Shown: piece after piece, positions 40,588 to 58,795 of the stretch
How positions within the stretch are numbered: the stretch's first letter is position 1
How the letters are laid out: each line of letters opens with the position of its first letter
Assembly: GCA_004124385.1 (NCBI GenBank)
Contig: SCKN01000002.1
Coordinates: 248,001 to 312,000, forward strand
Length of the DNA: 64,000 bases
DNA from: Fidelibacterota bacterium
GTDB lineage: Bacteria; Fidelibacterota; Marinisomatia; Marinisomatales; TCS55
Direction: 5' to 3'
Program-made: the position numbers and the translations under genes
The notes under the pieces: generated by a model
The model's input: the letters and a program-made list of their open reading frames with translations, nothing else
Told to the model about the DNA's origin: nothing
Database searches by the model: none

Positions 40588-41682
40588 TTAAAACGCAACC
40601 TTAAAGGTTAGCCATTGTACACCATCGAAATATTCTGCTGTCCTGTAAGCATAATCTACAGACAGCCCCATTCCCGTCAAGCGGGAAAGATCAAGGCCAA
40701 TCCCAAAGGTTGGGCCCCAGATAAATTCTTCAGTACTGTTTTCAAACGCATCATCATCACTATCGTCATCTGTGTCCTGTATCATATCTACGCCGTAAGG
40801 TTCGGGATCAACCCCTATAGCAATACCCGCGCGAAGACTCAACATATTCATCAAACTAATTTCAGCACCTAACCTGATTTCGTCAAAGGAAAAGTTGTTA
40901 TTCAAAAATGAGCCGGCGAATGTTGCTTTGGCGGGGCCAAAATCTATTGGACCATAACCAACGCCGAGCTCAATGGTGGTGGGCAGTTCAAACGCTTGCA
41001 GTACAATCCTTCTGTGTTCAATGGGTGTTCCAGGTTCTGTCCCGGACGGTTGATGAAATTCTTCCAAATCTGATCCGTCAAATTTCATATCCAGACCAAG
41101 ATTACGGATAGATGCACCTAGCTGTAAACCTGTACCTGTACGATATTGAACTCCGGCATCTATTGCTAACCCAAACGCAGAAACACGCATTATCTTTTCA
41201 CTAATCATTTTCATATCAGCGCCAAAGAAAATTCTGTCACTCATTTTTCGGGCAAACATGAAAGACATTGTTATAAAACTGGGGGAATAAATTTCCCCCG
41301 TTCCTTCCGGTTCATCTGTTGTTGTAATGGGTATATCACCAAAATCAACTGACTTAATAGATATGCCAAAAACATTATTACCTAATTTGGCTGCAACAGC
41401 GCCATAATTAAGAGATAAGTCTGCAATCCATTGATTGTTTGAAAAGATAGCTTCACCGCTACCAGAAATATTAGCTAATCCGGCAATATTCCATTCTGCC
41501 GCTTCTAATCCAGATAAGCCAGCCACATAGGCACCAGACAAGGCCGCACCACGAGAGCCTACAGGAATCATGAGTTCCTGTGCCCCTGCGGTTCCACGAC
41601 GACGCTTACTGCCGCCTTCAGCCATACCTACAAAAATAATGGCTATTAAAACTAAAGATATATATTTGCTGTTTCTAATCAT
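40588..41682 (-). CDS. PorV/PorQ-like outer-membrane protein
   Basis: This 364-aa protein has a signal peptide ('ISLVLIAIIFVGMAEG'). A PorV-like opening follows: 'GTAGAQELMIPVGSRGAALSG' is the 'GxxGA.eL.ipvgaR..alGgA' pattern, with 'EAAEWNIAGLAN' in place of the usual 'NPAGLA'. Repeated amphipathic strands end in 'VQWLTFKVAF'. In Bacteroidota PorV carries T9SS cargo from the translocon to the attachment complex. It follows the 1060-aa cargo gene by 16 bases, with its own GGAGAG ribosome binding site. A paralogue occurs at 51296. Confidence 0.82.
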   Translation of the reverse strand: MIRNSKYISLVLIAIIFVGMAEGGSKRRRGTAGAQELMIPVGSRGAALSGAYVAGLSGLEAAEWNIAGLANISGSGEAIFSNNQWIADLSLNYGAVAAKLGNNVFGISIKSVDFGDIPITTTDEPEGTGEIYSPSFITMSFMFARKMSDRIFFGADMKMISEKIMRVSAFGLAIDAGVQYRTGTGLQLGASIRNLGLDMKFDGSDLEEFHQPSGTEPGTPIEHRRIVLQAFELPTTIELGVGYGPIDFGPAKATFAGSFLNNNFSFDEIRLGAEISLMNMLSLRAGIAIGVDPEPYGVDMIQDTDDDSDDDAFENSTEEFIWGPTFGIGLDLSRLTGMGLSVDYAYRTAEYFDGVQWLTFKVAF

Positions 41683-41698
41683 CGTTCTCGCTCTCCTT

Positions 41699-44600
41699 CT
41701 AGTAGACGCTCAAGCGTTCTTCAGGCTGGAACACAGCCAGTTTTAAAATTCGTTCACCAATATCCCTACCATTGCTATCATCCACGTCAATATGGACAAT
41801 ATACATTCCGCTGGCCACAGGAATACCATGATTATTCCTCAAATTCCATTCTGCGCGGCGGTCTTCATCGTTTTCATTTAATATTTCTTTTTCAATCTTC
41901 GTAACCATATCGCCTGCAATTGTAAAAACTCTTATTGTGGTCAGGCCAACACCAAGATTGGAAAAGAAAACTTTTCTATCTTGAGGGTTAGAATCTTCCG
42001 GGTTCTGCCCAAAGTAAGGATTAGGGAAAACAGTAATTAAGTCCAACTGTGCAGCCAGACTACTCTTGTCTGATGCATTTAATCCTTTACCTACAAATGA
42101 GTATACATCTTCTCCCGGAAAAATAGGATTACGAAAACCGAGACTAAATATATTACCTGATTCAAATCGCGATGCAGCTTTATTAAATTGCAACATCCAA
42201 CCAATTTTACTGGCAGTCGAATTATAATCAGCTAACTTTTCTCCTGTATATGCTCTATACAGGGGCATAAAAAATACATTTTTATTAATCTGGTAACTGA
42301 CTGAATCCTCTGACAGACCAAATATTTCTTTTGTGCCTGATACCTGATAAACACAAATATCAATTTGTTGATCGTTTTCTACCGTCCACATTTCAAATGG
42401 CAGCTGTACAGTGTCAATCATAGTTAAATTAGATTTAAACCACGTGCCAATTGATCCATTATCCGTGAAGCGGAATTCAATATCTTTCATTAAATCTGAA
42501 GCTATGGGCATCGCGTCAGGCTGTGCAACAGGTATAGATGTTAAAAAAGAAGCCCACGTTCCATCAGATTTTATTCCTCCAAATATGATTTCAGTATCAA
42601 GGTTATCATCCGCAGTTGTTTCAGCAAACGAATTCGTTATAGGAGCTTCATATGTGGCGTCGCGCGCACCCAATATGAATCCATCAGTAATTTCGACGTT
42701 TTCATAAAATGAAGGCAAGTCTTCAAACGTTAGATCAGAATTTGAATAATCATAATAATCGCTAGTTGCAGGGAACAATAAATCTGACATTATTAACTTA
42801 TTATCATCTGTATCGGTCAAATACCAGTAGTAAGCCGAATCAACCATATCAAACGTAATGGTGTAGTTATGATTCGTCAATTGGTACGGATCAATAACAT
42901 GGGGCAGAAAAACAGCATCAGATAAACCAGTATGGGTAATATTTAATGTATCAGAAAAAAGACTGGCTAACTCGTTACCAAGGCCAGGCCCCCCCGGAAC
43001 AACCGTAATAGCAGTCTGTGGGCTTTCAATGACCCTCTGAGCTGCATCAGGATCATATGCATAAGCTGTAACAGCAAAATAATATTTGCGGTGATTAATT
43101 AATTTTATATTGTTAATAATATCATCCGTTATCTCAATATAATGTTGAATACCAGAGTCCGTTCCGAATTGAGAGGGCAATTCCAGCAATTCACCCGTTT
43201 CTTCATCCAAAGAAAGATCCATAAGCCCTTTTAATCCGTCTACTATATCATAGGTAGCTACGCGCTCCCAAGGTCCTGCAACTGTTTTACCTTGATATAT
43301 ATTATATCCTTGAAAAGAATATCCAGAACAATTATAAGACTCAATCTTCTCACTGCCTTCCTCAAAGGTCAGGATAATTTTATCTTTTAATTGAGAATAT
43401 TCTGTTTGAGGTCCCGGTGGCGAACATACTTCAAAGTTTGCGTCAAAAGCCCCTTGGGCAAAATTGTCAAAATAGAACATTTTAGTTATGGATTTTTTCC
43501 AATTCGAACCAGCTGCAATAATAATAGAGCCAACAATTTCTACTGTATCGCCAACATTCATCGTAAAAGGCCCTGATGTCATTAAATAACGTTTGTCGCC
43601 CATAACGGGGTCTAACCAGCCCGTGCCAGTTACAGGGTTTCCGTCATGGACAAAAACAGAAGGCTCACCAGTCGTAGGGTCAATATATTCCTCACCGGAA
43701 GCGCCAATTAGACCATTCATATAAAGATACGCCTGCTCTGCTGTGTTTGGATCTTGGTATGCTGCAACACCATTAATATATTTAACGAATGATGTGAGAC
43801 CCAGTATCTCTTTATCTGGAACGTTTCTAATATGATAACTGTTTTCCAAAGACCAAGTCAGCATGGAAGCAGTATCGCCCGGTGAATCAACCAACGGTCC
43901 TTGGAAAAAATCTCCGCCAACCGCCGGGACTTCTACGCCATAGTTGGCATCGGGTGTAATATCGTTATAGGTATAACCAACACTCAAATCTACGTCACAC
44001 CCCACCATATCATCGGTAGCGTCACCGACATCATCATCGTGCCACATGGATACATATACACTGTCCAGATCATTGGACCCTTTATTAATCACTACCCAGC
44101 GGATAAATAGAATATTACCCAAGGCTCCCGCCTGGTCAAAACCAAATACAGATGTTTGGAGTTCAACATTCATAGGAGGCGTTCCCCACAAAAATGTATG
44201 TACGGAGGCATCACCGTCATTCATCACATACCAATGAAACATATCGCCTAGTATGTCCGGATGATCCCCATCTTCGATATTATAAAGACCATCGCCGTTT
44301 GCATCCACCCAAGGAGCACCTGCAGCAACGGGCCAATTTTCAAAATCATTTGTTGGAAAATCTCTCCACGTATCTTCCGTAAAAGCATGGGCCCCTTCGA
44401 GAACAGTTACAGGAAGATAGACCCCGGAACTGGCATATGTAGCATAATCATTTTCTAGAAAAAATGTCAATTCTTTTTTATTTATTTCATAAATATGACC
44501 ATCGTTTGTTACGCCATCAATAGAACCAGGTGTGAATTCTACAGTGTATTCAGCTGCGGCTGAACGTAATTCATCTACCCATACATCGCTACCAGCGGCT

Positions 44601-44881
44601 TTTGTTTTACCCGATATCATCCATAAGCCTGCTTGGAATACAGCTGTTTTACCGCTCCCCTTGGGCCATTCCAGCCCTGACTCACTGGATAAATGGTAAC
44701 TAGCAATATCGCCATGATTACCATGGGTTGTGCTTATCTGATTACCATCCCAGATTACGTGCTCTACTGATCCAAGCGCCGATTTAGCAACATGCTCCGG
44801 AGCAGTGCTACGATTATAGGGTTCAACTGCATTTAAAAATGCTGCCAGTATTATCAATGTGAAAATTGTCTTCGTATTCAT
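41699..44881 (-). CDS. large T9SS type-A secreted protein (cassette 1)
   Basis: This protein of about 1060 aa is read from the ATG at 44881, which has AAGGAG nine bases upstream. Residues 1-20 are a signal peptide. The N-terminal region contains 'LSSESGLEWPKGSGKTAVFQ' and 'GLWMISGK', conserved in the paralogue at 52379 ('GMEWPKGSHLYINFASGLWI'). Long beta-rich regions with Asp-rich loops follow ('WVDANGDGLYNIEDGD', probable calcium sites), with fibronectin-like segments around 500-640. The C-terminal domain is a T9SS type-A/FlgD-Ig-like sorting domain: 'VFPNPYFGQNPEDSNPQDRK', 'TIRVFTIAGDMVTKIEKEI' and 'IPVASGMYIVHIDV', closing with 'FQPEERLSVY'. Function unknown; a surface or secreted binding protein working with the adjacent TonB receptor is likely. 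Confidence 0.83.
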   Translation of the reverse strand: MNTKTIFTLIILAAFLNAVEPYNRSTAPEHVAKSALGSVEHVIWDGNQISTTHGNHGDIASYHLSSESGLEWPKGSGKTAVFQAGLWMISGKTKAAGSDVWVDELRSAAAEYTVEFTPGSIDGVTNDGHIYEINKKELTFFLENDYATYASSGVYLPVTVLEGAHAFTEDTWRDFPTNDFENWPVAAGAPWVDANGDGLYNIEDGDHPDILGDMFHWYVMNDGDASVHTFLWGTPPMNVELQTSVFGFDQAGALGNILFIRWVVINKGSNDLDSVYVSMWHDDDVGDATDDMVGCDVDLSVGYTYNDITPDANYGVEVPAVGGDFFQGPLVDSPGDTASMLTWSLENSYHIRNVPDKEILGLTSFVKYINGVAAYQDPNTAEQAYLYMNGLIGASGEEYIDPTTGEPSVFVHDGNPVTGTGWLDPVMGDKRYLMTSGPFTMNVGDTVEIVGSIIIAAGSNWKKSITKMFYFDNFAQGAFDANFEVCSPPGPQTEYSQLKDKIILTFEEGSEKIESYNCSGYSFQGYNIYQGKTVAGPWERVATYDIVDGLKGLMDLSLDEETGELLELPSQFGTDSGIQHYIEITDDIINNIKLINHRKYYFAVTAYAYDPDAAQRVIESPQTAITVVPGGPGLGNELASLFSDTLNITHTGLSDAVFLPHVIDPYQLTNHNYTITFDMVDSAYYWYLTDTDDNKLIMSDLLFPATSDYYDYSNSDLTFEDLPSFYENVEITDGFILGARDATYEAPITNSFAETTADDNLDTEIIFGGIKSDGTWASFLTSIPVAQPDAMPIASDLMKDIEFRFTDNGSIGTWFKSNLTMIDTVQLPFEMWTVENDQQIDICVYQVSGTKEIFGLSEDSVSYQINKNVFFMPLYRAYTGEKLADYNSTASKIGWMLQFNKAASRFESGNIFSLGFRNPIFPGEDVYSFVGKGLNASDKSSLAAQLDLITVFPNPYFGQNPEDSNPQDRKVFFSNLGVGLTTIRVFTIAGDMVTKIEKEILNENDEDRRAEWNLRNNHGIPVASGMYIVHIDVDDSNGRDIGERILKLAVFQPEERLSVY

Positions 44882-44910
44882 ACGAAAAATCTCCTTAACC
44901 ATAATTAATT

Positions 44911-47900
44911 TTATAAATCTACCCGAATACCGAACCGAATTTGTCGAGGTATTGAAAAATTATACGGGTTGGCAAGTTTGCCATTATACAACTGTTCACC
45001 GGATCCTGCACCGCCTATAGCTACATTATTCAGCCAGTTTTCTCCAGAAGGTTCCGTAAGCCAGCTATCGTTATTGGGCATACCTGATGCAGAATACACA
45101 TCTACAATATTTTGCGTATTCAAAACATTTGTTATCCAGATAAATGCGCCTACATCAACACCGGCAACCCGGAAAGTTTTATCCAATTTCAAATCCATAT
45201 TATATGTCCAAGGCATATTTGCTGAATTAAGACCGCCGATCGGATGAGAGGATATTGCTCCAAAAATCGCCGTATATGGCTTTGTTGGTGTATAAGGCAT
45301 TCCGCTACCAAAACGAAATAGCATATTGGCACCTAGATTGTTCATGAATGGAATTTGAGTACGTGCACCGGTGCGGTAATCAACGGAAATATTACCCGTA
45401 TGGCGCTGGTCATAATCTAAAGGTGAAATAAAGGATGGATTATTCCCGCCCTGCCAGGCAATTCTGTACAAACCCGAAGAATTAGATCCGGTACCGCCTG
45501 CCCACGATAAAGTATAATTGGCGTCTACCTGAACATTGCCCAGCCTTCTCGTTTTAAACGAAAGACTTAAACCCTTACTTGTGCCATAATCACCATTTAC
45601 GTACAGAGCATACCCCGTTGGCACGGCGGCTATGTTGCGAATCTGGATATAATCTGATTCTTGCTTGTAAAACAAAGTTGCATCCAATGTAACATCGTTT
45701 GTCAAGTATTGTTTTACACCAATTTCATATTGAACACTGCGAACAGGTTTCAGCTCCGGGTTAGCAGAAATTGTAAAGTTTCCTTGCTGAAGGTTTGAAG
45801 TAAACCGGGCATAACTCAAATACAAGCGGTTGAATTCTGGTTGTTGTAAATACCAACCGTATTGAGCATGAAATACCGTTTTATCTGTAACGGGGAACGC
45901 CAGACCAATCCTGGGGCTGATTTGTTTTGTAGGGTTCGCCAAAACCTGATGAGACAGACCATTGCTATCGTATTCTGTTGGGTCGGGAGAAGTGTATTTC
46001 CCGTCCTCATCCTGATAGACCATTCCTGCAATTGTACCATCTGAAGCAATGACGATATTTGTATTGCCACCTGTAAGCGGATTAAATACTTCAGTAGCAG
46101 GATTTATATAATCGTAACGCAGTCCTAAATTTAGAATTAAATCTTTAATTTCAAACTTATCCTGTATATACAGTGCACCTATAATGGGTTTACGTGCTTT
46201 ATCTGTGCCTTTATTTACTTCTTTTTCACCCGTTACATTATAACCGATGTTTTCAGCATAAGCAGAAACATAAGCTGATGTTTTATAAGTATCAAAGTAG
46301 TCGGCATAATCCCCATCACCATCCCAAATATCCGTTTGATCCTGTAAATAATCCGCAATACCATCACCGGCATAATCCCGGATTAATGCGCCGGCGCTAT
46401 CATTAAACGCAGCATCCCAGCGATATATATCCTGTGTAGGTGAATACGCAGGATTGTTATTAAAATAACGGGAAAGTGAAGATGCCCTGCCCATACGGTA
46501 ATAGCGAACAGTATTATCCGCGTATTCTCCGCCGAACTTGAGCTCATGGTGACCATACTGCCACACCAATGAACCATTTATCATCTGTCGAGATGTATTA
46601 CGCTTCTCATAAGATGTACTTGCTGATCCCGCTAATGAATATTGGACTATTTCTACATGGGGAGATGGTGCGATACCCACGGATGTATACAAAGGGTTTA
46701 TCCAGGTTGTATCATAATTCACCTGCACAAAACTTAAATCTTCATTATCAAGCCAATATGATGTTGTACTGCGAACACCGTTTGAATCCTCATATACCCA
46801 TACGGGGCTTGCATAATCTTCTTTCTTTCCAAATTGGATATAAGGGATTGTTTCATTGGAAACAGTACCATCTTCATACACATACTTGCCAAAACCTTTT
46901 TTAAATACGGGGTCGTGGAGTTCATAGGATTCAGTAGAGTTACTGTACTGCAAATTAAAAAACATTTTATCTACACCGGGGACTGCGCCTGACAATCGGG
47001 TGTGAAATGAATTATAACGGTTATGAGACTGGTTAAAACGCAGTCTTAATCCACCGCTTGAACCTACTTTTTGATCTGTGCTTGCTGTATTATAATAGTC
47101 AAACATTGCTCTACTATGACTGTAATGCGTACGATCGCTACTATAACCATTTATACCCATACGTAGTTTCCATTTAAGACCGGTGACAGGCTGAAGATCC
47201 AAAAGAACATTTCCAATATAAGACATCCTGTCAACACCATTATTGGGTTTCGGCCCATCCCATAACTGTAAATCATTTGCATCAATGGCCAAATAGTCCG
47301 GACCATCGTAAACGCCATTGCCATCAGCGTCCGTAAAGTCTTCACCTTCATCATAGATCGTGTTACCATTGGAATCAACAAATAGCTCGCCATTATCGGG
47401 CAGTCCATTTGCCGGATTAATCTTACCCGTATATTTTGGAAATTGCCCGGTCGTCGGGTAGGCATCGTCCATACTGCTCATTTCTACCGCACCATATAAG
47501 CGAAGCATATTGGTTACCGGTCCGCCTAGAGAGGCTGAAATAAGATTGTAACCATACGAGTAAGCAAAGGGTTGTGGCTCATCAGGACCTGTAGCACCAG
47601 CAGATATGAGAGCATCTGTGATAGTTTCTGCAGATGCCTCTAATCTTGACCCGCCCGTTTTTGTTGTCGTACTTACAATGCCGGCTGTAGCAGAACCATA
47701 TTCGGCCCCAAAACCGCCCGCTTGGTATGACACCTCTTCCAAACTTAGGTTGGGAACGCTTCCTGATCGACTAAGTGTATATGAGTTATTAACCAATACA
47801 CCATCAACATAAAAACCAACCCCATCGGATCTTCCGCCCCGTACGTGCATATTCCCCGAAGCGTCAACTACAACACCTGTTTGAATAGCAGCTACATTTT

Positions 47901-48339
47901 CATAACCTCGAATAGGCATATTTCTTATATCTTCTCCGCGTACAATCCGAACTTCATTGGTAGCATTAATTTCGATAAGGGGCTTTTCAGCAACGACTAT
48001 TATTTCTTTTCCGGCAATTGCTTCAGATGATAGCTCGATTGTATATAAATTTGTTGTAAGATCTTTAGCAACACGCACATTCTCAATCGTGACTTTAGCA
48101 TAGCCAATAAAACTAAACTTTACGCTATATATACCGGGAGGAACATTCAGAATATAAAAATCTCCATTGGAATCTGTAGCGGCTCCCATATTGGTTCCAT
48201 CCAGAATAACATTAACGCCCGGTAATAAATTTCCGTTTGATTTATCTGTTACTGACCCGGCAATTTTTCCTGTCTCACCAGCAAAAAGCATCATTGGGAT
48301 CAATAGAATTGTAAATAGCTTGAGGGTATGTTTTAACAT
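44911..48339 (-). CDS. TonB-dependent receptor with CarboxypepD_reg-like domain (cassette 1)
   Basis: This protein of about 1142 aa is read from the ATG at 48339, preceded by GGAGA seven bases upstream. Residues 1-19 are a signal peptide. A carboxypeptidase-regulatory-like beta sandwich (about 25-110) shows 'ITDKSNGNLLPGVNVILDGT'-type sequence, here 'TDKSNGNLLPGVNVILDGT'. The plug domain contains 'VRGGRSDGVGFYVDGVLVNN' and 'GGFGAEYGSATAGIVSTTTK'. A 22-strand-like barrel fills the rest, ending in 'IPRQIRFGIRVDL'. Asp-rich loops such as 'DADGNGVYDGPDY' suggest calcium or polymer binding. It imports or senses an unknown ligand and lies just upstream of the cargo gene. Confidence 0.88.
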   Translation of the reverse strand: MLKHTLKLFTILLIPMMLFAGETGKIAGSVTDKSNGNLLPGVNVILDGTNMGAATDSNGDFYILNVPPGIYSVKFSFIGYAKVTIENVRVAKDLTTNLYTIELSSEAIAGKEIIVVAEKPLIEINATNEVRIVRGEDIRNMPIRGYENVAAIQTGVVVDASGNMHVRGGRSDGVGFYVDGVLVNNSYTLSRSGSVPNLSLEEVSYQAGGFGAEYGSATAGIVSTTTKTGGSRLEASAETITDALISAGATGPDEPQPFAYSYGYNLISASLGGPVTNMLRLYGAVEMSSMDDAYPTTGQFPKYTGKINPANGLPDNGELFVDSNGNTIYDEGEDFTDADGNGVYDGPDYLAIDANDLQLWDGPKPNNGVDRMSYIGNVLLDLQPVTGLKWKLRMGINGYSSDRTHYSHSRAMFDYYNTASTDQKVGSSGGLRLRFNQSHNRYNSFHTRLSGAVPGVDKMFFNLQYSNSTESYELHDPVFKKGFGKYVYEDGTVSNETIPYIQFGKKEDYASPVWVYEDSNGVRSTTSYWLDNEDLSFVQVNYDTTWINPLYTSVGIAPSPHVEIVQYSLAGSASTSYEKRNTSRQMINGSLVWQYGHHELKFGGEYADNTVRYYRMGRASSLSRYFNNNPAYSPTQDIYRWDAAFNDSAGALIRDYAGDGIADYLQDQTDIWDGDGDYADYFDTYKTSAYVSAYAENIGYNVTGEKEVNKGTDKARKPIIGALYIQDKFEIKDLILNLGLRYDYINPATEVFNPLTGGNTNIVIASDGTIAGMVYQDEDGKYTSPDPTEYDSNGLSHQVLANPTKQISPRIGLAFPVTDKTVFHAQYGWYLQQPEFNRLYLSYARFTSNLQQGNFTISANPELKPVRSVQYEIGVKQYLTNDVTLDATLFYKQESDYIQIRNIAAVPTGYALYVNGDYGTSKGLSLSFKTRRLGNVQVDANYTLSWAGGTGSNSSGLYRIAWQGGNNPSFISPLDYDQRHTGNISVDYRTGARTQIPFMNNLGANMLFRFGSGMPYTPTKPYTAIFGAISSHPIGGLNSANMPWTYNMDLKLDKTFRVAGVDVGAFIWITNVLNTQNIVDVYSASGMPNNDSWLTEPSGENWLNNVAIGGAGSGEQLYNGKLANPYNFSIPRQIRFGIRVDL

Positions 48340-48511
48340 AACCATTCTCCGATTAATTAATTATTTTATTTAATGTCTGGCCGATAAGGACATAAAAGAA
48401 CTCCGCATGTCATAATAACGACCGTGATATTAACTGCTCCTAACTCTACTGACAAGCATAAACAAGAGTTTATACTGTCTTGAGTTAAGTCTGTCTTCAG
48501 CAGAATTTAGG

Positions 48512-50557
48512 TTAATCTGCGAAAGTTTCAAGGATTTTTATTGCATCGGGATTATTTGGATCGAGTTCAAGTATTTTTAATAAAGCAGCTCGCGCCTGGT
48601 CGATGTTGCCACTGTGCTGAAATATAGTAGAAAGGGTGCCGTAAGACGGAATAAATCCAGAATCAATCTCCAACGCTAGGAGTGCGAATTTCTTTGCACT
48701 GTCCCACTTCTTCTCTACGATTGAAACATTGCTCATGTTATGCAGAGCAAAAATATTATCTGGTTCTATTGCTAAACAGGACAAAAAATTAACTTTGGCT
48801 TTACCGGTGTTATTTTGTTTATATAACAAAATTTCTCCTCTATTATTATACGCATTTGCATAATCCGGATCCAAGATAATGGCCTGTGTATATGCAGCAA
48901 AAGCGGCAGAAGCAGAATCTGATAGTATTAGTGTTTGACCAAGATTATTCCAAACAACGGGTATATATGAATAAAAATTTATTGACTTGCGAAAGAAATA
49001 GTTTGCCTGTTCTAGCTTGTCTGATTCCAAATTTAAGATACCCAGCTGTGCATTAGCCAAAACATGGGTTGAATCATATTTTATTGTTTGTTGATACGCT
49101 GATTCTGCTTTTCTCAAATTCCCCAGTAAATGATACGCTCGCGCCAAATGATACCAACCGGAAATATGGTGAACCTTATTGATTAAATTGTTTTCTAATA
49201 ACGAAATTGCCAATTGCAGGTAATCTTTGTGTTCGTGGCGAGATTCATAATATCGTATGTACGCTATTCCTTTTTGTACGTTGGCATCACGATCTGTTTC
49301 AAGAAAGTAATTCGTCAGTTCTTTCGGTTTTTTATAACTGTAGCTTTTGTCCGGTTTTTTGACAATTGTCGATGATTGGCTGATTTGAATTTTATGATCA
49401 GTAAAATTTACATGGGGAATGTCCGCTGTATTACCTTGGGGCATATGACACTGAATACAATCTGCTCCTGGACGATGGTTTGCGACGCTATTGGTCAACG
49501 AAAGGACGTTTAACTCATGGCAGGAAACACAATGCTTATTAAATGAGTGTTGGCTATGGTCTTGGACCGGCACATGTGGGTTATGACAAGTAATACACGT
49601 TAAGGAAGCACTTTCTTTAAAACAGGCGCTTTTGGCTAAACGTTCTGCGTGACTGGCAATACGAAATTCATTGGGATCTGATGAAGAATCCATAAATATA
49701 CTTTTTACATGACTTAAGAGCATTCCCGGGCGAAAATCGCTACTTTGTTTGCCTTGTTTAAATACGCTGATTTCTCCCTGTAAATGACATTGTTGGCAAA
49801 CATCCAATTGTTCTTGAAAGGGGAGGTGCTTGGGATTTACAATTGTATAATCTATTTTCCCCTTTTGGTCATTCATCTTCTCTATTCGGGATTGAACATG
49901 CAACTGACCAGGCCCATGACACCGTTCGCACCCAATTCCATGAGGTAAAGGAGTATTATATTTGTTTTGCGCTAAAGGCTCATAGTCTGTAAAACTATTG
50001 TGGCAGTGCATGCATTTTTCAACAATTGGTCGGGAAAAACGCATATTATTAGAATAATATCCTGGGCTCAAATCCCATTTTTTCTGATCAGAATACCACG
50101 TTAAAGGTAATTCTGTGATAAATCCATTTTGAATAGATAGATACGTACGGTTGTGATTTCCGGAACCGATGATATAATCCACCATCTTACTGCGTTCATA
50201 AATTTTGTCTCCGTTTTGATTTAAACGATATTCTATTTGTACCATTTTATCATTCACGAGTGATGCAGTATAATAAAAATTATTTTTGGCATCATATACA
50301 GGTTCATTATTTTGAAAATCTTCAATGATTTCAGCGCTCTCTGATGGGTAAAAAGAACGCCCCATGCCTGTTTTAATAAAACTATTATATATATCAGGGT
50401 GGCAAGCAGCACATTCTACATCACCTATATATTGCACGGTTGACTTTAAGTTTTTGAATTCAGGGGAAACGGATTCTTTTGATTGTAAAATCTGCATTCC
50501 AAAGATGATAATTAGAATAACGATCAAGTTTATTAAAATATGTTTCACCCGGAACAT
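48512..50557 (-). CDS. seven-haem cytochrome c with C-terminal TPR domain
   Basis: This 681-aa protein has an N-terminal hydrophobic anchor/signal (about 6-22) and seven CxxCH haem-binding motifs beginning at residues 49, 182, 210, 254, 321, 343 and 367 (CAACH, CMHCH, CERCH, CQQCH, CITCH, CVSCH, CIQCH). From about 440 to the end, tetratricopeptide repeats appear ('GWYHLARAYHLLGNLRKAES', 'AYNNRGEILLYK'). Similar cytochrome-TPR proteins occur in bacteria that transfer electrons through the envelope, but the donor and acceptor are not known. No partner oxidoreductase is adjacent. It lies between the two TonB cassettes. Confidence 0.88.
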   Translation of the reverse strand: MFRVKHILINLIVILIIIFGMQILQSKESVSPEFKNLKSTVQYIGDVECAACHPDIYNSFIKTGMGRSFYPSESAEIIEDFQNNEPVYDAKNNFYYTASLVNDKMVQIEYRLNQNGDKIYERSKMVDYIIGSGNHNRTYLSIQNGFITELPLTWYSDQKKWDLSPGYYSNNMRFSRPIVEKCMHCHNSFTDYEPLAQNKYNTPLPHGIGCERCHGPGQLHVQSRIEKMNDQKGKIDYTIVNPKHLPFQEQLDVCQQCHLQGEISVFKQGKQSSDFRPGMLLSHVKSIFMDSSSDPNEFRIASHAERLAKSACFKESASLTCITCHNPHVPVQDHSQHSFNKHCVSCHELNVLSLTNSVANHRPGADCIQCHMPQGNTADIPHVNFTDHKIQISQSSTIVKKPDKSYSYKKPKELTNYFLETDRDANVQKGIAYIRYYESRHEHKDYLQLAISLLENNLINKVHHISGWYHLARAYHLLGNLRKAESAYQQTIKYDSTHVLANAQLGILNLESDKLEQANYFFRKSINFYSYIPVVWNNLGQTLILSDSASAAFAAYTQAIILDPDYANAYNNRGEILLYKQNNTGKAKVNFLSCLAIEPDNIFALHNMSNVSIVEKKWDSAKKFALLALEIDSGFIPSYGTLSTIFQHSGNIDQARAALLKILELDPNNPDAIKILETFAD

Positions 50558-50639
50558 GGCATAAGATAAAAGGGCTGCTTATCTTTAATTTGATTTTTTT
50601 TCCTGATCATAATCAGGAAGTTAATATATTATTTTTTCC

Positions 50640-50894: not shown

Positions 50895-50911
50895 AGTTAT
50901 TTCCGGAATCG

Positions 50912-51234: not shown

Positions 51235-51238
51235 AATA

Positions 51239-51277
51239 GGAAATGGAAAAAGCCCCAAGAGGGCTTTTTCCATTTCC
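51239..51277 (-). terminator. strong hairpin terminator after cassette 2
   Basis: A perfect 17-base inverted repeat (GGAAATGGAAAAAGCCC paired with GGGCTTTTTCCATTTCC) around a five-base loop follows the PorV-like gene. A run of T is inside the 3' arm rather than after it, but the stem is very stable and placed exactly at the end of the minus-strand unit 58795-51296. Confidence 0.78.
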
Positions 51278-51295
51278 TTCTGATTTTAAAATAAT

Positions 51296-52357
51296 TTAGA
51301 AGGCTATCTTAATCGAATAGACCAGGTTATTATCAAAATAATCTACAACTGATCTTTGGGCTACTTCTAAAGAGACAATCATATTTCCGATGGGATAATT
51401 AATTCCTGCTCCAAAAGTAGTGCCAAAATTAGAGCCACCATATTCATCCCAATCACCTTGTTTAATATCGTCCGGTTTTTCATCATCAATGCTTTCAATT
51501 GCTATCGCTCCGCCAATCCATAAAGATGATGTTCCCATGGTAGTATTATATTCACCCCCTAAACGCAGCTGATTATTTGAAAAGCTGTTATTGTTAAAGG
51601 ATGCCATGAGGGAAAGGTTGGGTATGACTTCATAATTTATTGACATATTTAATTCAGCAGGTATTTCAAACCCTTCCGATACAATCTGAAAGCTTTCATT
51701 CTTTGTGCCATCTTCTGATTCATCAGGTGAAAGTTTCTGTTCCAGATCTGATCCTGCATACTGCATTTTGGAACCCAGATTGCTCAGCATGACTCCGATT
51801 TTGACAGGAAGATTAGCGAAACTGTACTGAACACCCATATCTACACCAATACCACTCGCTGTTGTTCGCATAATACGTTCTTGGACATATTTTAAATTCA
51901 CCCCAACACGCATACGGTCAGCCAATGCTTTTGACCATGTAGCGGAGACAGTCATGAAGTCAGGTGAGAATGTTTCACCTGTTCCTTCCGTATTCTCCGC
52001 TGATGTTCTGACAATTTCACCAAAATCAAATGATTTCACGCTAAAGCCAAATACGCCGGATTTACCGGCATTGGCGACAAGTGCAACATAGTTTACCTCT
52101 ATATCCGCGATATAGGACATATTTGTAAACACAGCTTCAAATGATTTATCGAAGTTGGATGCTCCCGCCGGGTTAAAGAATAGTGCATCCACACCACTGA
52201 CAGTTGCAAGATTTGCTCCATTCAAAGCAATGCCATGTGCCCCCACAGGTACAGACAACTGAGTTGCACCGGCAGTGCCCCTTGACTTAATTGTCCCAGC
52301 AAAGGTTGTAGCAAGTAATGCACCCGCAATGATTAGACTTGTGTATTTTGTTTTCAT
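51296..52357 (-). CDS. PorV/PorQ-like outer-membrane protein (cassette 2)
   Basis: This 353-aa paralogue of the gene at 40588 has a signal peptide ('SLIIAGALLATTFAG'), the opening 'GTAGATQLSVPVGAHGIAL' and the PorV-type 'FFNPAGASNF'. A run of amphipathic strands ends in 'VYSIKIAF'. The segments 'FGFSVKSFDFGEIVRTSAEN' and 'MRVGVNLKYVQERIMRTTAS' align with 'FGISIKSVDFGDIPITTTDE' and 'IFFGADMKMISEKIMRVSAF' of the other copy. It is the last gene of cassette 2, 21 bases after the cargo gene. Confidence 0.82.
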   Translation of the reverse strand: MKTKYTSLIIAGALLATTFAGTIKSRGTAGATQLSVPVGAHGIALNGANLATVSGVDALFFNPAGASNFDKSFEAVFTNMSYIADIEVNYVALVANAGKSGVFGFSVKSFDFGEIVRTSAENTEGTGETFSPDFMTVSATWSKALADRMRVGVNLKYVQERIMRTTASGIGVDMGVQYSFANLPVKIGVMLSNLGSKMQYAGSDLEQKLSPDESEDGTKNESFQIVSEGFEIPAELNMSINYEVIPNLSLMASFNNNSFSNNQLRLGGEYNTTMGTSSLWIGGAIAIESIDDEKPDDIKQGDWDEYGGSNFGTTFGAGINYPIGNMIVSLEVAQRSVVDYFDNNLVYSIKIAF

Positions 52358-52378
52358 TATTAATCTCTCCTTTTGCTG

Positions 52379-55300
52379 TTAATAGACATCTATGCGTTCT
52401 TCGGGCTGAACAACAGCTATCTTAAGTAATTTATCTCCCGAAGCAGTTTCAATATGGGCAATATACATTCCGCTAGCAACGGGAATATTGAAGTTATTGG
52501 TTAAATTCCAAACTTCATATTGCGTTCCATCATTGTGAACCATTTTTCTAACCAATTCACCGGCAAGATTGAACACGCGAATTGTCGCTGTCCCGTCTTC
52601 TGGAAGATGTGTAAACGTGACTTGTCTTTCAACAGGTGTTCTCTCTTCCGGGTTGTATGCAAAGTATGGATTTGGCCAGACATTGATTTCTTTTGGATCA
52701 TATGCCACTGTGGCGGTCTTAGCGTTATCTGTATCAATTGTGAAGACATCGCTCAAGGCGTTGGGCTTGGTGGTCACCATCCGGAATATAGTTCCTTCTT
52801 CAGGTATCTCCGCATCGACTACAAATGGATCAGCCTCCACATCGCCACCGTTCCAGTTTGCGAATGTCATGTTCAGCAAAACGACTCTAGTGATCTGACC
52901 AACAGCTGAAAGTGGTAATCCAGGGCCTGTTGCCCATATATAAACACCGCTGGCCATGGGATCAGCGGTAAGGGCAGCTACCATAGCTTCATATCCAGCA
53001 GTACCGGGCGCCCTATCCGCATGCTCCAATACATAAAATCCTTCCATGTACGGATCATTGGTTCCGCCGGAAATTGGGCTGTCATCCTGATACATGTTCC
53101 ATTCGCCATCTTCATTAGAGTCATTGAATATTCCCATCAGCTGAAAATCGTCATCCGGATCATTAACATCACCAATATTCCAGATTTCGAGCGGTGTATC
53201 AACAACCAGATCTGTACCCCTATTAAGCATCTTACTCCCGGTTGCGGTAAAGCGGAACTCATAATCGTCAGGAATTAAATACTGCATACCGCCATCCGGA
53301 TTTCCATATCCTCCGGCATAACGGGTCACGTAAGGGTAGAAATCCTCGTAGTTTTTGTTGGATCCGTTGCTGGTAGTAATAAACCACGTCGAGCCATTAG
53401 TCTGCTGGTTTTCCATATTATCTCGGCCCATACCGGGATAACCATTATAATCGGCTGAAGCGCCGGCATAACCATCGATAGCGCCATCGGCATTATGGGT
53501 AGCGTAGAAGTCCTTGAATTCATTTGGCGGACCACTTACTATTATCTGCAATCCCTCAACGATCGGATTTGCACCGACTCCAACATCGTCTCCGCTCTCC
53601 ATATCTACGCCGCCTTGTATGGGATTACCCGAAACCAGCAGTGTACTGGTGGTGGTGTTGGTCAGGTCCCAGACAAGGGTTGTAGTGTCAGCATTAAAAC
53701 GAAACGAAATTTGATATTCATCACCTGTAATCAATAACGGATCAATGATCACTGCAACAGCTGATCCGTCTGAAGCGCCGACGCTATGCGTGGCGGCGAT
53801 AGACGATGTACCATAACTGGTCACGGGTTCATCTCGCGTGGTTGCGATTTGCGGACGGATAGTTATTATGTTCATCGAACTTTCCAATGTTCTCGGAATT
53901 CCATAGGGATTATATCCATAAGTAGTCACAGCAAAGTAATATGCTCGATTGGTCTTCAGCGGAATTCCACCATTTAAACCATCTGTATCAATTTCAATAC
54001 TCCGTTTGATACCGCTGTCAGAACCAAACTGTACACGGCGATTGATTATTTCACCAAGGGTTGCATCAAATACATCATCGAATATTTCCGTAATTCCATC
54101 AATCAAATCATACGTGGCAACTCGTTTTGCGGCTCCTTGCCCGGATGCGGTTTCTAATTGATAAACATTGTATCCCTGAAAAGTAAATGTAGTATTCTCA
54201 CCTTCGAAAGTGGTGTCAATGTTATCTACTATTTGAATAAATGTATAAGTCGTATCCATCGTAATCGTTGTATCGATTCCAACGATCACTGTATCCGATG
54301 TCACCCCAAATATAATGTCCGTAACCCAGGTTGTATCAAAAGAGACCGGGACGGGGAGTTTATCAATCACATCTAATGCCTCGTAGCTTTCTACTGCATT
54401 CACACCGTCGTCCCAAGTGAGCAAAATAGCATCATTAGATGTACTTACTGCAACATCCGGAGAAATTGGAGAGGCAGGTAACGCAAACTGAATATCGTAT
54501 GCGAGCTGCGCCAATTGATCGACCTCTTTCAATGCTGTAATTGAGGAAAGGGCACTATTACCGCGAGCAATTATCATACCAAAAACGACTTCCTGAGAGT
54601 CCTCAGCTGCAAGTGTAAATGGACCAACGTTCATTAAAAACCGTCGATCGCCTGAAGCATGATCATCTGAATCAACCCAAACGCCATCACCGGCGCCCGT
54701 ATTAAGGTTTGGATCGTCCGGGTGAACAAACTTACCTGCTTCACCTGTTTCAGAGTTAATAAATGGTGAACCATCCCTGAGGTAGCCAGACATATAGTTG
54801 TATGCTTCTTCCGCAGTATTCGGATCAGCATAAACCGGATCGCCATTAATATATTTTGTAAAAGAACTCATTTCGAGGTTTTTATAACCCGGGATAAGCC
54901 TGCCATAGGCAAAAGCTGTATCACCGGCAGATTCCACAATGGGTCCCTGGAAAAAGTCATAACCTATAGCCGGCGGATCTCCACCATAATCAGAATCAGC
55001 GCCATCGTTATAACAAAAACCTAAACTGAGGGTTGTATCGCATCCGACAAAGTCATCCCCTGCATCACCAAGATCGGGGTCTGCCCATAGACCAATAATG
55101 GTCGAATCAACATCCACACCGCTTTTATTGATGATCAACGCTTTAACGAACATCATATCACCAAAAGCGTCCGGTCTATCATATCCCCAAATGGTCATTT
55201 GCAATTCAACGCCCAAAGGCAACGTGTTAAAAATGGAGTGTTGTGCTTGATAGCCATCATTCATCACCCACCAAATCACCTGGTCGCCGATAAATTCCGG

Positions 55301-55825
55301 GTGGTCAAGCCCTGCCGGCAATGGAGTATAAACCCCATCTCCGTCTTCATCTACCCAAGGCGCTCCCAAATCGACTGGCCAGTTCTGGAAATCATCACTT
55401 GCCAGAGGATCTGCTAAATCAGATTTATTTACTATATATAGCTTGTGTTCGGAGGCTCCTTGATCACTCCCCCAAGGTCCGGCCACAAATTCAGGCCCAT
55501 ATTCTGCAACAGCGGTTCGGATTTGACCGTCGACCTTACCTGCAATCCAGAGTCCTGAAGCAAAGTTAATGTAGAGATGGGAACCCTTAGGCCATTCCAT
55601 TCCCGAATGACCTGTAATCCGATGGGATACAAGCATACCATTGTTTTCCAAGTCATCGCGTATTCGATTACCATCAAACTGTCCGGCATCTGCTTTGTAT
55701 AATGGGCCCGGCAAATTTAATCTGCCGCCTCTCTTTTCTCCTATTAACCCTGTGGTCATAATGGAGAAAAGAAAAGAAAAGAATAATATGCTTCTAATCT
55801 GTTTAATAAATAGATTTTTTTTCAT
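52379..55825 (-). CDS. large T9SS type-A secreted protein (cassette 2)
   Basis: This 1148-aa paralogue of the cargo gene in cassette 1 has a signal peptide (about 1-29), 'SGMEWPKGSHLYINFASGLW', calcium-like loops ('WVDEDGDGVYTPLP', 'FNDSNEDGEWNMYQDD') and fibronectin-like regions. A T9SS type-A C-terminal domain has 'VWPNPYFAYNPEERTPVERQ', 'TIRVFNLAGELVRKM' and 'IPVASGMYIAHIETASGD', ending 'QPEERIDVY'. The final motif QPEER(L/I)xVY is shared with cassette 1. It is probably secreted through the T9SS and works with the adjacent TonB receptor; ligand unknown. Confidence 0.83.
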   Translation of the reverse strand: MKKNLFIKQIRSILFFSFLFSIMTTGLIGEKRGGRLNLPGPLYKADAGQFDGNRIRDDLENNGMLVSHRITGHSGMEWPKGSHLYINFASGLWIAGKVDGQIRTAVAEYGPEFVAGPWGSDQGASEHKLYIVNKSDLADPLASDDFQNWPVDLGAPWVDEDGDGVYTPLPAGLDHPEFIGDQVIWWVMNDGYQAQHSIFNTLPLGVELQMTIWGYDRPDAFGDMMFVKALIINKSGVDVDSTIIGLWADPDLGDAGDDFVGCDTTLSLGFCYNDGADSDYGGDPPAIGYDFFQGPIVESAGDTAFAYGRLIPGYKNLEMSSFTKYINGDPVYADPNTAEEAYNYMSGYLRDGSPFINSETGEAGKFVHPDDPNLNTGAGDGVWVDSDDHASGDRRFLMNVGPFTLAAEDSQEVVFGMIIARGNSALSSITALKEVDQLAQLAYDIQFALPASPISPDVAVSTSNDAILLTWDDGVNAVESYEALDVIDKLPVPVSFDTTWVTDIIFGVTSDTVIVGIDTTITMDTTYTFIQIVDNIDTTFEGENTTFTFQGYNVYQLETASGQGAAKRVATYDLIDGITEIFDDVFDATLGEIINRRVQFGSDSGIKRSIEIDTDGLNGGIPLKTNRAYYFAVTTYGYNPYGIPRTLESSMNIITIRPQIATTRDEPVTSYGTSSIAATHSVGASDGSAVAVIIDPLLITGDEYQISFRFNADTTTLVWDLTNTTTSTLLVSGNPIQGGVDMESGDDVGVGANPIVEGLQIIVSGPPNEFKDFYATHNADGAIDGYAGASADYNGYPGMGRDNMENQQTNGSTWFITTSNGSNKNYEDFYPYVTRYAGGYGNPDGGMQYLIPDDYEFRFTATGSKMLNRGTDLVVDTPLEIWNIGDVNDPDDDFQLMGIFNDSNEDGEWNMYQDDSPISGGTNDPYMEGFYVLEHADRAPGTAGYEAMVAALTADPMASGVYIWATGPGLPLSAVGQITRVVLLNMTFANWNGGDVEADPFVVDAEIPEEGTIFRMVTTKPNALSDVFTIDTDNAKTATVAYDPKEINVWPNPYFAYNPEERTPVERQVTFTHLPEDGTATIRVFNLAGELVRKMVHNDGTQYEVWNLTNNFNIPVASGMYIAHIETASGDKLLKIAVVQPEERIDVY

Positions 55826-55849
55826 TTTTGTTACCTCTGTTTATTGAAA

Positions 55850-58795
55850 TTACAGGCTGTACGTTAAACCAACGCGAATCATTCTCGGGCTCTCCCAGCG
55901 GCTGGGATTTTTTAAACGATCTTCGTAAAAGGTCGAGCCTATAACATTCCCCTTAGACCATATTTGTCCCGCAGCTGTTTCAATCCAACCATCTTCTCCC
56001 GTTGAACCTGTTCCCGGATACACATTATTGACATTTTCTGTATTCAGGGCGTTCAGTATAAGAATATAAGCCGATACACCCGTTCCGGCTAAATCAGAGA
56101 GATTGATTCTAATATCCAAGTTTGAAGTCCACGGCTTATAACTGGAGTTTATACCAGCAACAGGCGCGTACCAACCTCGACCAAAAACAGCTGACTGCAT
56201 CACCGATGGCGTATAAGCTGTGCCACTGCCAAATCGATATAAGGCATTAATACCTAAATCAAATAAACCGGCAACTTTACCTGCCTGGTAATCGGCCATA
56301 ATTGATCCCGTATGCCTCTGATCAAAATCAAGCGGATTAATTGATGTTGGATAATCATCACCGATCCAAGCAACATTCCAGTTCGTTTGCGGATCAGAGC
56401 CAGTTCCGTTTGCCCACTGTATTGTGTAGTTCATATCAATTAAAACACCGCGCATCCGGCGCATTTTCAAAGCGGCGGACAGTCCCTTCACCACACCATA
56501 GTCACCATTTTCATACTGGGCCCAACTAAATTTTGCTCCATCAACCGTCGATCCTACGTGATTGGACATAGAGGTATAGTCACGGACTTCCTTATAATAA
56601 CCGGTCAAATCAATGGCCGCAAAATTTCCGAATTGCTGTGCAAAACCAATTTCATATTGCGTTGTTTTTTCCGGTTTTAAACCTCCATTTGGAGATACGG
56701 TGTGATTCCCCTGGCTCAAATTTGCTGCAAAATGAGAATCGGATAAATACAACCTATTCAATATGGGATGCTGGACAAATTTACCATACTGCGCATGCAG
56801 AACTGTTTTATCTGTCACCGGGAATGTGACACCAACTCGTGGCGAAATATACGTATATGAATCCACTGTTTTATACCCTGATGCAACATGATCAATACGA
56901 CCATTATCCGTAAAAATTTCATCCCAGGTTGCCGGAACCTCTGACCCAAAGTCAAAACTGTCATACCGTAAACCGATACTCAATACAAGATCCTCTAACT
57001 CTATCTTATCTTGAATATACGCGCCCATAATCACCGGTTCCCCGGGGGCTGTAGTGCCTGTGCTTGCATCATAACTATCAGCCTCTTTACCTTGTTGATC
57101 ATATCCAATATTCATTGTATATGCATTCCTGTACAACGTATATAACCAGGTCGGATCATTTACATCTTGACCGGACTGGGAAGCCTTGTGATAACCACCG
57201 GCAATTTCCATAGGCTGAGCCAAACGATAGTCCCGAATGGTATGTTTCCGGTATTCAAAACCGGTTTTTATTTCATGACTACCCATTTGATTAAGATAAT
57301 CAGCTTTTGCTCCAATATAACTGATATTATTTATTCGATATTCATCATAGACACTGCCAAAATTAGTAAAATACGCAAAATCCTCTACAGCAAGAGGGTT
57401 TTGACCCCAATCAATTAATGCTTCATTACCGGCAACGTCCAGGTTGCCATAATCCATTATATTGTCTCTATGGCGATTGTCACCATATTCCCGGGCATAG
57501 TTATAATAACTGAGGTTGATTTTTGCAAACGATGTTGAGCCTAACCGCAGAGTAAAATTGGCATACCCGGATTTAGTCGCAGATTCGTACCAAGGAGTAT
57601 TTGCAGAGTTCAAAAGTGTATATGTATAAGGATAATCTCCCTGGCTCATTGTCATACTTTCACCCAGGTCTCCCCGCGAATTTTTCCTGGTAAACGAACC
57701 ACCGGCTTTAACTCTGATCGTTCCCATATCAAAAACTATATTCCCGGTCATTACATCACGAGTTAGCCCGGCATTTTCTTTGGGGCCGTATAAACGTTTA
57801 TAATCAGAATAAATTATAGAGGTGGAATCACTCGTGAAGTCGACCAATACTGTAGCTTCAAGAGGATCAGCTGCGGCGCCTGCAGCAGAATCTCCTTCGG
57901 CTCGCTCTATGGATGGATAGTAAGAAACGGATGGACTTGCATCGTCCATGGTGATGCGTTCAAAACTACCAAAATATCTGATCTTATCTCCTAAAGGACC
58001 GCCCACATCAAAGCTCATCAATTGGTAACCATAGCTATGCAGCTCATCTTTGTCAACGGTTGCAGCAGCTCCAAGATCTGTTACAAATTCAACACCCATG
58101 GAAACTGCTTCACCGCCGGTTCGTGTGGTTGTATTTACCACGCCGCCATTTGAATTTCCAAATTGCGCATCAAAACCGCCGGATTGGAATGAAATCTGCT
58201 CCATAGCGTTCATACTGACCACGCCGGTATTAGAAAGCGTAAAAGGGTTTACAGTATAAACACCATCAACATAATATGCCATATCGCCGCTTCGACTGCC
58301 GCGAACATAAATTTGACCGCCGCTGCTGACCGCACCCGTTTGCAACGCCACTAGGTTTTCAATGCCTCGAAGAGCAATATTTTGGATAATATCTTTATCA
58401 ATTATTCGAGTTGTGTTTGTTGCAGATGTATTAATAATCGGTCTTTCAGCAATAATTTCAACAGCTTCTCCTTCAAGAGCAGCCACTTCTAGTGAAAAAT
58501 CCAGATTTGTTGTTAAATTTTCGGAAACATTCACATTTTTCACAGTAACACTTTTATATCCAATATAATCTACACGAACAGAGTGAGTGCCGACAGGAAC
58601 ATCTAATATGAAATATTTACCATTTTCATCAGAAGCGCTACCATAGGCGCTTCCTACAATAAAAACGTTCGTACCTCCGAGAGGAGATCCTTCTTCATTC
58701 AAAATCGTTCCGGAAACCTTCCCGCTGGATTGAGATAGGAGTATTGTTGGGACAACGACAATTGCCATTGTTATTAAAGTGAGTAGCTTTTTCAT
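55850..58795 (-). CDS. TonB-dependent receptor with CarboxypepD_reg-like domain (cassette 2)
   Basis: This 981-aa outer-membrane receptor has a ribosome binding site (AGAGG) before the ATG and a signal peptide (about 1-21). The carboxypeptidase-regulatory-like domain includes 'GTILNEEGSPLGGTNVFIVG', and the plug has 'YVRGSRSGDMAYYVDGVYTV' and 'GGFDAQFGNSNGGVVNTTTR'. The barrel ends 'SPRMIRVGLTYSL'. It resembles the receptor at 44911 in domain order, plug motifs and C-terminal strand. It is the first gene of cassette 2 and is expressed divergently from the remnant at 59044. Confidence 0.88.
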   Translation of the reverse strand: MKKLLTLITMAIVVVPTILLSQSSGKVSGTILNEEGSPLGGTNVFIVGSAYGSASDENGKYFILDVPVGTHSVRVDYIGYKSVTVKNVNVSENLTTNLDFSLEVAALEGEAVEIIAERPIINTSATNTTRIIDKDIIQNIALRGIENLVALQTGAVSSGGQIYVRGSRSGDMAYYVDGVYTVNPFTLSNTGVVSMNAMEQISFQSGGFDAQFGNSNGGVVNTTTRTGGEAVSMGVEFVTDLGAAATVDKDELHSYGYQLMSFDVGGPLGDKIRYFGSFERITMDDASPSVSYYPSIERAEGDSAAGAAADPLEATVLVDFTSDSTSIIYSDYKRLYGPKENAGLTRDVMTGNIVFDMGTIRVKAGGSFTRKNSRGDLGESMTMSQGDYPYTYTLLNSANTPWYESATKSGYANFTLRLGSTSFAKINLSYYNYAREYGDNRHRDNIMDYGNLDVAGNEALIDWGQNPLAVEDFAYFTNFGSVYDEYRINNISYIGAKADYLNQMGSHEIKTGFEYRKHTIRDYRLAQPMEIAGGYHKASQSGQDVNDPTWLYTLYRNAYTMNIGYDQQGKEADSYDASTGTTAPGEPVIMGAYIQDKIELEDLVLSIGLRYDSFDFGSEVPATWDEIFTDNGRIDHVASGYKTVDSYTYISPRVGVTFPVTDKTVLHAQYGKFVQHPILNRLYLSDSHFAANLSQGNHTVSPNGGLKPEKTTQYEIGFAQQFGNFAAIDLTGYYKEVRDYTSMSNHVGSTVDGAKFSWAQYENGDYGVVKGLSAALKMRRMRGVLIDMNYTIQWANGTGSDPQTNWNVAWIGDDYPTSINPLDFDQRHTGSIMADYQAGKVAGLFDLGINALYRFGSGTAYTPSVMQSAVFGRGWYAPVAGINSSYKPWTSNLDIRINLSDLAGTGVSAYILILNALNTENVNNVYPGTGSTGEDGWIETAAGQIWSKGNVIGSTFYEDRLKNPSRWESPRMIRVGLTYSL

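Follow-up and report, generated by a model that had tools for sequence, protein, structure and literature searches.

A recurrent gene trio of TonB-dependent receptor, type IX secretion cargo and PorV-family barrel in Fidelibacterota and other FCB genomes

Results and discussion

Two paralogous cassettes share one gene order

The DNA analyzed here, termed the window, is the 64,000-nucleotide (nt) stretch spanning positions 248,001 to 312,000 of contig SCKN01000002.1 from a Fidelibacterota bacterium (GenBank assembly GCA_004124385.1). It contains two cassettes, both on the minus strand, in which the gene for a TonB-dependent receptor (TBDR) is followed by one for a cargo protein with a type IX secretion system (T9SS)-type C-terminal domain (CTD) and then by one for a PorV-family barrel; we refer to this arrangement as a trio. 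Cassette 1 is composed of the TBDR (44911–48345; 1144 residues), the cargo (41699–44902; 1067 residues, with a signal peptide, a passenger domain bearing the EWPKGS motif, a middle domain and the CTD) and the PorV-like barrel (40588–41682; 364 residues), separated by 8 nt and 16 nt, respectively. The corresponding genes of cassette 2 lie at 55850–58795 (TBDR; 981 residues), 52379–55825 (cargo; 1148 residues) and 51296–52357 (PorV-like barrel; 353 residues), with gaps of 24 nt and 21 nt.

The two paralogous, same-order cassettes proposed in the initial annotation are both real by coordinates, family models and BLASTP, the latter giving identities of 37% for the cargos, 38% for the PorV-like barrels and 36% for the TBDRs. 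The TBDR of cassette 1 starts at 48345; the earlier start, 48339, is the next in-frame methionine. The common cargo features named there, EWPKGS, the DxNGDG/DxDGDG loops and the ends QPEERLSVY and QPEERIDVY, are all present, while the description of the cargos as giant does not fit their lengths. The same gene order is found at seven further places in the genome, which argues that it is not a chance arrangement.

The receptors are TBDRs outside the SusC level

Plug and β-barrel Pfam models score above their cut-offs in both window TBDRs, which places the two proteins among the TonB-dependent receptors. TBDR1 contains a CarboxypepD_reg domain, a TonB-box-like stretch (EIIVVAEKP), a plug and a barrel (PF00593, 82.5 bits; PF07715, 26.5 bits; PF13715, 64.6 bits), and TBDR2 gives 85.9, 25.7 and 62.3 bits with PF00593, PF07715 and PF13620, each of these values being above cut-off. 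TonB-box-like stretches are present in most trio TBDRs examined. The SusC model TIGR04056 (cut-off 368) assigns 59.3 bits to TBDR1 and does not list TBDR2, so neither reaches the SusC level. A Pfam scan found no SusD-family match in either window cargo, and the cassettes are thus not SusCD pairs by these models.

The barrels belong to the PorV family and resemble translocon PorV

Both window barrels exceed the cut-off (90) of the PorV/PorQ family model NF033709 (PorV_fam), with 125.4 bits for the barrel of cassette 1 (PorV1) and 110.2 bits for that of cassette 2 (PorV2). They stay under the cut-offs of the PorV equivalog NF033710 (35.6 and 48.6 bits; cut-off 250) and the PorQ equivalog NF033711 (55.7 and 84.6 bits; cut-off 220). 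PorV1, the one of the two that was modeled, is predicted by AlphaFold2 to form a FadL-type barrel (predicted local distance difference test score (pLDDT) 82), in which we count 14 barrel strands from the listed strands. The best Foldseek match of this model is PDB 8gl6_F, PorV in the T9SS translocon (E = 1.8e-13), and a profile of 11 PorV sequences matched the PorV chain of 6h3i with an E value of 8e-35. Next after PorV in the Foldseek list are structures of FadL, TodX and CymD (E = 6e-9 to 1e-7), as would be expected if the barrel were a FadL-type channel for hydrophobic compounds whose gene neighbors those of a TBDR and a surface-binding protein but which has no part in cargo export. We consider this improbable, as both the structural and the profile comparison rank translocon PorV first and the barrel accompanies one class of CTD and not other CTD proteins (see below).

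The cargos carry a CTD of borderline type A character

The CTDs of cargo 1 (41699–42043, ending in LKLAVFQPEERLSVY) and cargo 2 (52379–52711, ending in LKIAVVQPEERIDVY) are both included in an alignment of ten trio CTDs from this genome (A3), and score 114.5 and 117.7 bits, respectively, against the profile of which they are themselves members. The initial annotation had called them type A sorting domains, an assignment that proves borderline: cargo 2 passes TIGR04183 (25.2 bits; cut-off 23) while cargo 1 does not (17.0 bits), and PF18962 (cut-off 27) gives 18.1 bits for cargo 2 and no match for cargo 1. The PorU C-terminal model matches cargo 1 weakly (23.7 bits). As to type B, no match to CHU_C (PF13585, cut-off 27) or to PorP/SprF was found at E ≤ 0.1 in the window cargos or barrels; two other trio cargos of the genome score 24.8 and 16.3 bits with CHU_C, under its cut-off.

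No Pfam family exceeded its cut-off in the ten trio cargos of the genome. Below threshold, RIMBP2-like Ig and BNR matches fall outside the CTD and an SbsC C-terminal match falls within the CTD region; BLASTP links all ten cargos to one another through the part that precedes the CTD. An AlphaFold2 model of cargo 2 (pLDDT 78.9) predicts a super-β-sandwich at residues ~40–450, which VIA-align superimposes on 9ju0 over 254 aligned residues (Z = 18.5; root mean square deviation 3.3). The same region gives Z scores of 15–18 with domains of glycoside hydrolase (GH) GH15-, GH65-, GH94- and GH116-type enzymes, and PorZ and PorU are among the Foldseek matches of the cargo. The comparison bears on the super-sandwich, the rest of the cargo being barely sampled by it. 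These glycosidase families have an (α/α)6 catalytic barrel; on our reading the cargo 2 model contains none, and for this reason we rejected the possibility that the cargo is an enzyme. That its ligand is a carbohydrate would be a weak guess from the predicted fold of one passenger.

The genome encodes many trio barrels and one core PorV

The window's genome (2.09 Mb, 96.8% complete) yields 16 matches to the PorV_fam model. The TBDR–cargo–PorV order occurs at nine places, the two window cassettes and the loci L040, L041, L044, L045, L046, L047 and L048, with the TBDR of L046 broken by a stop codon and L047 containing an additional second cargo–PorV pair. Locus L043 has a TBDR and a PorV with no cargo between them. 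The remaining members of the family comprise a 452-residue core PorV encoded beside a T9SS-dependent M6-like protein, two genes close to SprA, and a PorQ-like gene that follows PriA; there is one core PorV-type gene in the genome. SprA is encoded in L049 (729.8 bits; cut-off 200), and PorU is represented by a single match over cut-off (591.9 bits; cut-off 420).

PorV draws type A cargo out of SprA, holding the CTD with its outer loops (PMC10994853). With PorU encoded in this genome, trio PorVs might do the same and serve as shuttles only, extracting the cargo from SprA and passing it to the common PorU attachment complex, where the CTD would be cleaved and the cargo released or lipid-linked, leaving the barrel absent from the final structure. 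We regard this as the less likely reading. One core PorV is already present for the many generic CTD proteins, and the roughly ten further barrels, each tied to one cargo and mostly to one TBDR, suggest a lasting role for the barrel.

Trio PorVs form a branch of their own in eight genomes

To place the trio barrels within their family, we scored PorV-family genes in eight genomes: that of the window, three more of its phylum, Adhaeribacter soli, a Rhodothermaceae metagenome-assembled genome, Crocinitomix algicola and Marinimicrobia TCS56. Excluding isolated PorV_fam matches under 41 bits, the census comprised 93 genes, 51 of which were scored as lying in a trio, two beside a cargo only, four beside a TBDR only and 36 beside neither; each of the eight genomes has at least one trio. 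The 51 include two additional barrels, each encoded directly downstream of a trio PorV in a different genome (L137:9721, 504 residues; L197:6986, 465 residues). They are distant PorV/FadL-like proteins and fall elsewhere in the tree, which reduces the number of trio PorVs to 49. In a quick tree these 49, with the four TBDR-only and two cargo-only PorVs, form one branch of 55 (Shimodaira–Hasegawa-like approximate likelihood ratio test (SH-aLRT) support 99) that contains none of the 36 others; PorV2 groups with the other trio PorVs. A separate core-PorV branch has one member from each of the eight genomes, with the trio PorVs outside it. The trio withstands both refuting conditions named in the initial annotation, a lack of conservation and PorV-like genes with unrelated neighbors: it is found repeatedly in this genome, in others of the phylum and in further genomes of the Fibrobacterota–Chlorobiota–Bacteroidota (FCB) group, and its PorVs branch apart from the single core PorV. 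A loop motif, G[TS]G[ERK], derived from PEGTGE, is present in 21 of the 51 trio rows and in 0 of the 36 others, and may serve as a suggestive, though not diagnostic, marker of trio PorVs.

A conserved variant was found at L043, L154, L174 and L186, where a protein of ~500 residues, a TBDR and a PorV follow one another with no cargo between; in at least L043 the next gene encodes an NHL-repeat protein of ~440 residues. The PorVs of this variant form their own branch (support 99). Such cargo-less TBDR–PorV pairs occur in four genomes. In three of these (G000, G009 and G016) a trio-class cargo that stands alone (open reading frames of 719–754 residues) is encoded on the same strand ~6–9 kb farther upstream, which raises the possibility that the unit is split and not incomplete.

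A distinct CTD class is linked to the PorV-like barrel

The A3 profile was used to define a CTD class and was searched in the same eight genomes. It separates 63 trio-class CTDs, each with at least 64 bits, from the next match at 46.8 bits. The start of a PorV-family gene lies within 500 nt downstream of 47 of these 63, compared to two of the 87 lower-scoring CTDs among the matches listed (Fisher p = 1e-22, a value that is descriptive because the genomes are related); within 2 kb the number is 51 of 63.

We also examined 77 named loci from Neomarinimicrobiota, Rhodothermales and other Bacteroidota. These were found via the cargo pair, as the alignment of 11 PorVs (A1) lacks a sufficiently conserved stretch, and they are therefore sampled by cargo and not by PorV. 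Across them the same passenger domain carries different C-termini. Where there was room on both sides, a TBDR and a PorV accompany 34 of 54 trio-class cargos, the other 20 lack the two genes altogether, and no cargo has just one of them; of 13 generic-CTD cargos with such room none has a TBDR or PorV. Eight cargos that run off the contig at the 3′ end were left unscored. Among the 20 partnerless cargos are copies from Rhodothermales, the Crocinitomix group and additional copies close to a complete trio. They recall the orphan type B cargos of Flavobacterium johnsoniae that share a shuttle (PMC12618676).

The three proteins diverge together

Mantel tests within single genomes revealed correlated divergence of PorV and CTD in G000 (rho = 0.64, p = 0.001), G016 (rho = 0.54, p = 0.0005) and G061 (rho = 0.46, p = 0.006). 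When 48 trios were pooled and shuffled within genomes, rho was 0.52 for PorV–CTD (null mean 0.08), 0.57 for PorV–TBDR and 0.45 for CTD–TBDR (p = 0.0005 each). When the nearest PorV and the nearest CTD were sought in another genome, both belonged to one trio in 69 of 176 comparisons, with 20.6 expected. These data show, at the level of sequence divergence, joint inheritance of the trio parts, and are consistent with cognate PorV–CTD contact.

The correlation also bears on whether the barrel might be an assembly factor for its neighboring TBDR with the cargo as a passive neighbor, akin to BamG of the Bacteroidota β-barrel assembly machinery (BAM) complex, which likewise has the FadL fold and binds a surface protein by its outer loops (PMC12578637, PMC12611786). 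We judge this very improbable: PorV divergence follows the CTD about as well as it follows the TBDR, and the BamG model NF053685 (cut-off 250) gives 15.9 bits on PorV1 and does not list PorV2, compared to PorV_fam scores of 125 and 110 bits.

A putative surface-uptake module

On balance we favor a reading in which each cassette probably encodes a surface-uptake module, with the PorV-like barrel as cognate shuttle and probably lasting anchor for the cargo and the cargo serving the neighboring TBDR. The trio-class CTD would direct the cargo out of the periplasm via the cell's single SprA translocon. At the lateral opening of the translocon, the neighboring PorV-like barrel, and not the core PorV, would take the CTD and stay bound, so that barrel and cargo together would become a membrane-anchored surface protein. 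The anchored cargo may then act as a ligand catcher or lid for the neighboring TBDR, which would import the ligand with TonB energy. The assignment of trio PorV as cognate shuttle and anchor draws on the analogous handling of type A cargo by PorV and of type B cargo by PorP/SprF. In the latter case, cargo is bound and anchored by cognate PorP/SprF barrels (PMC9143113, PMC12618676), and it has been suggested in a review that CTDs might be shielded from PorU by cognate PorV-like barrels (PMC10202324). For the barrel of the trio, a role as lasting anchor is no less likely than one as passing shuttle.

The initial annotation had proposed dedicated shuttles, with the TonB receptor supplying uptake or energy. 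Linkage, CTD class and correlated divergence lend good support to the dedicated role; binding of the CTD itself is a prediction. An energy supply for export finds no support, because the T9SS has a motor of its own that drives export (PMC10994853, PMC10202324); a role in uptake is more plausible.

Several observations weigh against the uptake-module reading. PorV–CTD correlation was not significant in G053 (rho = 0.16, p = 0.24) and marginal in G009 (rho = 0.46, p = 0.06), the PorV loops track CTD divergence not clearly better than the strands (partial correlations of 0.36 and 0.32), and correlated divergence would also be expected from operon inheritance. A PorV-family gene is absent from the 500 nt after 16 of the 63 trio-class CTDs and from the 2 kb after 12, two of the latter being at contig ends. 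Both partners are absent for Crocinitomix-type passengers and second copies, and four PorVs in the census adjoin a TBDR with no intervening cargo. Finally, the only SusD match of the window's genome, with a TBDR, lies upstream of the L048 trio (L048:15809–19998, minus strand).

Comparison with known systems

Our literature search, whose coverage left out most subscription papers and all preprints, found no description of the TBDR–cargo–PorV unit, in keeping with the initial annotation. The trio has parallels in several characterized systems. In the type B systems of F. johnsoniae and Porphyromonas gingivalis (PMC12618676, PMC9143113), the cargo gene is also followed by that for its own small FadL-fold barrel (PorP/SprF, sometimes with PorE), orphan cargos occur and the barrel is proposed to be shuttle and anchor. 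By contrast, the trio barrel is of the PorV/PorQ family, its CTD is not type B by model, and a TBDR rather than PorE completes the set. Core PorV with type A cargo (6h3i, 8gl6; PMC10994853) shares with the trio the PorV family and fold, a T9SS-type C-terminal signal and the presence of SprA and PorU in the genome. However, one core PorV handles numerous type A cargos encoded at scattered sites, whereas the trio PorVs belong to another branch and score far under the PorV equivalog cut-off; type A-like cargo is described in PMC12618676 as relying on one general PorV.

In SusCD/RagAB and BtuBG, as in the trio, a TBDR stands beside a surface partner in many paralogous copies, but the trio partner is a T9SS cargo without a SusD match and not a lipoprotein, and an extra barrel is encoded. 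The PorU–PorV and PorZ–PorQ pairs show that an uncleaved CTD can be retained by a PorV-family barrel (PMC10202324); those pairs are single T9SS components, unlike the repeated, TBDR-associated trio. What is new relative to known cognate CTD–barrel pairs is the TBDR as a third partner.

On the Bacteroidota side, trio-rich and SusD-rich genomes are largely different

Of 60 genomes sampled from the window's phylum, 59 have trio-class CTDs (median 8.5, maximum 21); the 60 contain 1–29 PorV-family matches each, and 13 of them have SusD. Among 99 genomes of the Bacteroidota-side phylum, that of Adhaeribacter, 56 have trio-class CTDs. The top-listed match in 20 of these 56 lies with all three genes in 16 cases (one with altered order and one with an extra gene), with a TBDR and cargo in two and as cargo alone in two. 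Over the 99 genomes, trio-CTD and SusD counts, the latter stopping at 21, are weakly anticorrelated (Spearman −0.23, p = 0.02, no phylogenetic correction): SusD is absent from 20 of 31 genomes that carry at least five trio CTDs, and a trio CTD from 20 of 25 that carry at least five SusD. The coefficient of −0.65 over the 78 genomes with a trio CTD or SusD is biased by the selection of genomes with either one, and is likewise uncorrected for phylogeny. A SusCD-like role for the trio fits the finding that the window's phylum is SusD-poor and that, in counts uncorrected for phylogeny, SusD-rich and trio-rich Bacteroidota-side genomes are largely different.

We therefore raise, more tentatively than the module itself, a broader possibility that falls just short of what we would call probable. 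FCB bacteria may have widespread TonB-dependent uptake complexes in which the surface lid or receptor is a T9SS-exported protein held by a private PorV-like barrel instead of a lipoprotein such as SusD; many cognate barrel–CTD pairs per cell would then share one SprA, as a second cognate system beside type B/PorP-SprF. The module suggests that most sampled FCB genomes outside SusD-rich lineages carry several to about twenty PorV–cargo pairs, mostly tied to an uptake receptor. If true, the trio would account for a large expansion of the PorV family and would provide the TBDRs of the nearly SusD-free Fidelibacterota/Marinimicrobia with a surface partner. The question of shuttle specificity would also become a set of paired natural experiments inside one genome.

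Genes neighboring the window cassettes

Cassette 1 is followed at its 3′ side by a further CTD protein with FlgD_ig and Por_Secre_tail matches (38127–40492, minus strand; PF13860, 39.7 bits and PF18962, 32.4 bits in its tail), which is split into two overlapping frames of 691 and 106 residues. Relatives of 757–858 residues are located directly after PorV in L072, L073, L088, L089, L091, L092, L094–L096, L098 and L099. The presence of these full-length relatives at the same position in related loci points to a frameshift or assembly error in the window copy. The final gene of this extended neighborhood (36762–38048, minus strand) encodes a PPIC-type peptidyl-prolyl isomerase (PF00639, 48.1 bits) that is probably a lipoprotein and has relatives with 23–32% identity in 10 of the 77 named loci. 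The F. johnsoniae T9SS translocon also contains a peptidyl-prolyl isomerase subunit.

On the other side, 166 nt upstream of the cassette 1 TBDR, lies a gene for a multihaem cytochrome c554-type protein with tetratricopeptide repeats (48512–50557, minus strand), relatives of which (44–45% identity) are found upstream of the trio in L089, L091, L094 and L096. Adjacent to cassette 2, on the plus strand, a fragment of 142 residues (59044–59472) shares 93% identity over 133 residues with part of a 756-residue divergent TBDR that adjoins cassette 2 in L056, and looks like a truncated remnant of an L056-type divergent TBDR gene.

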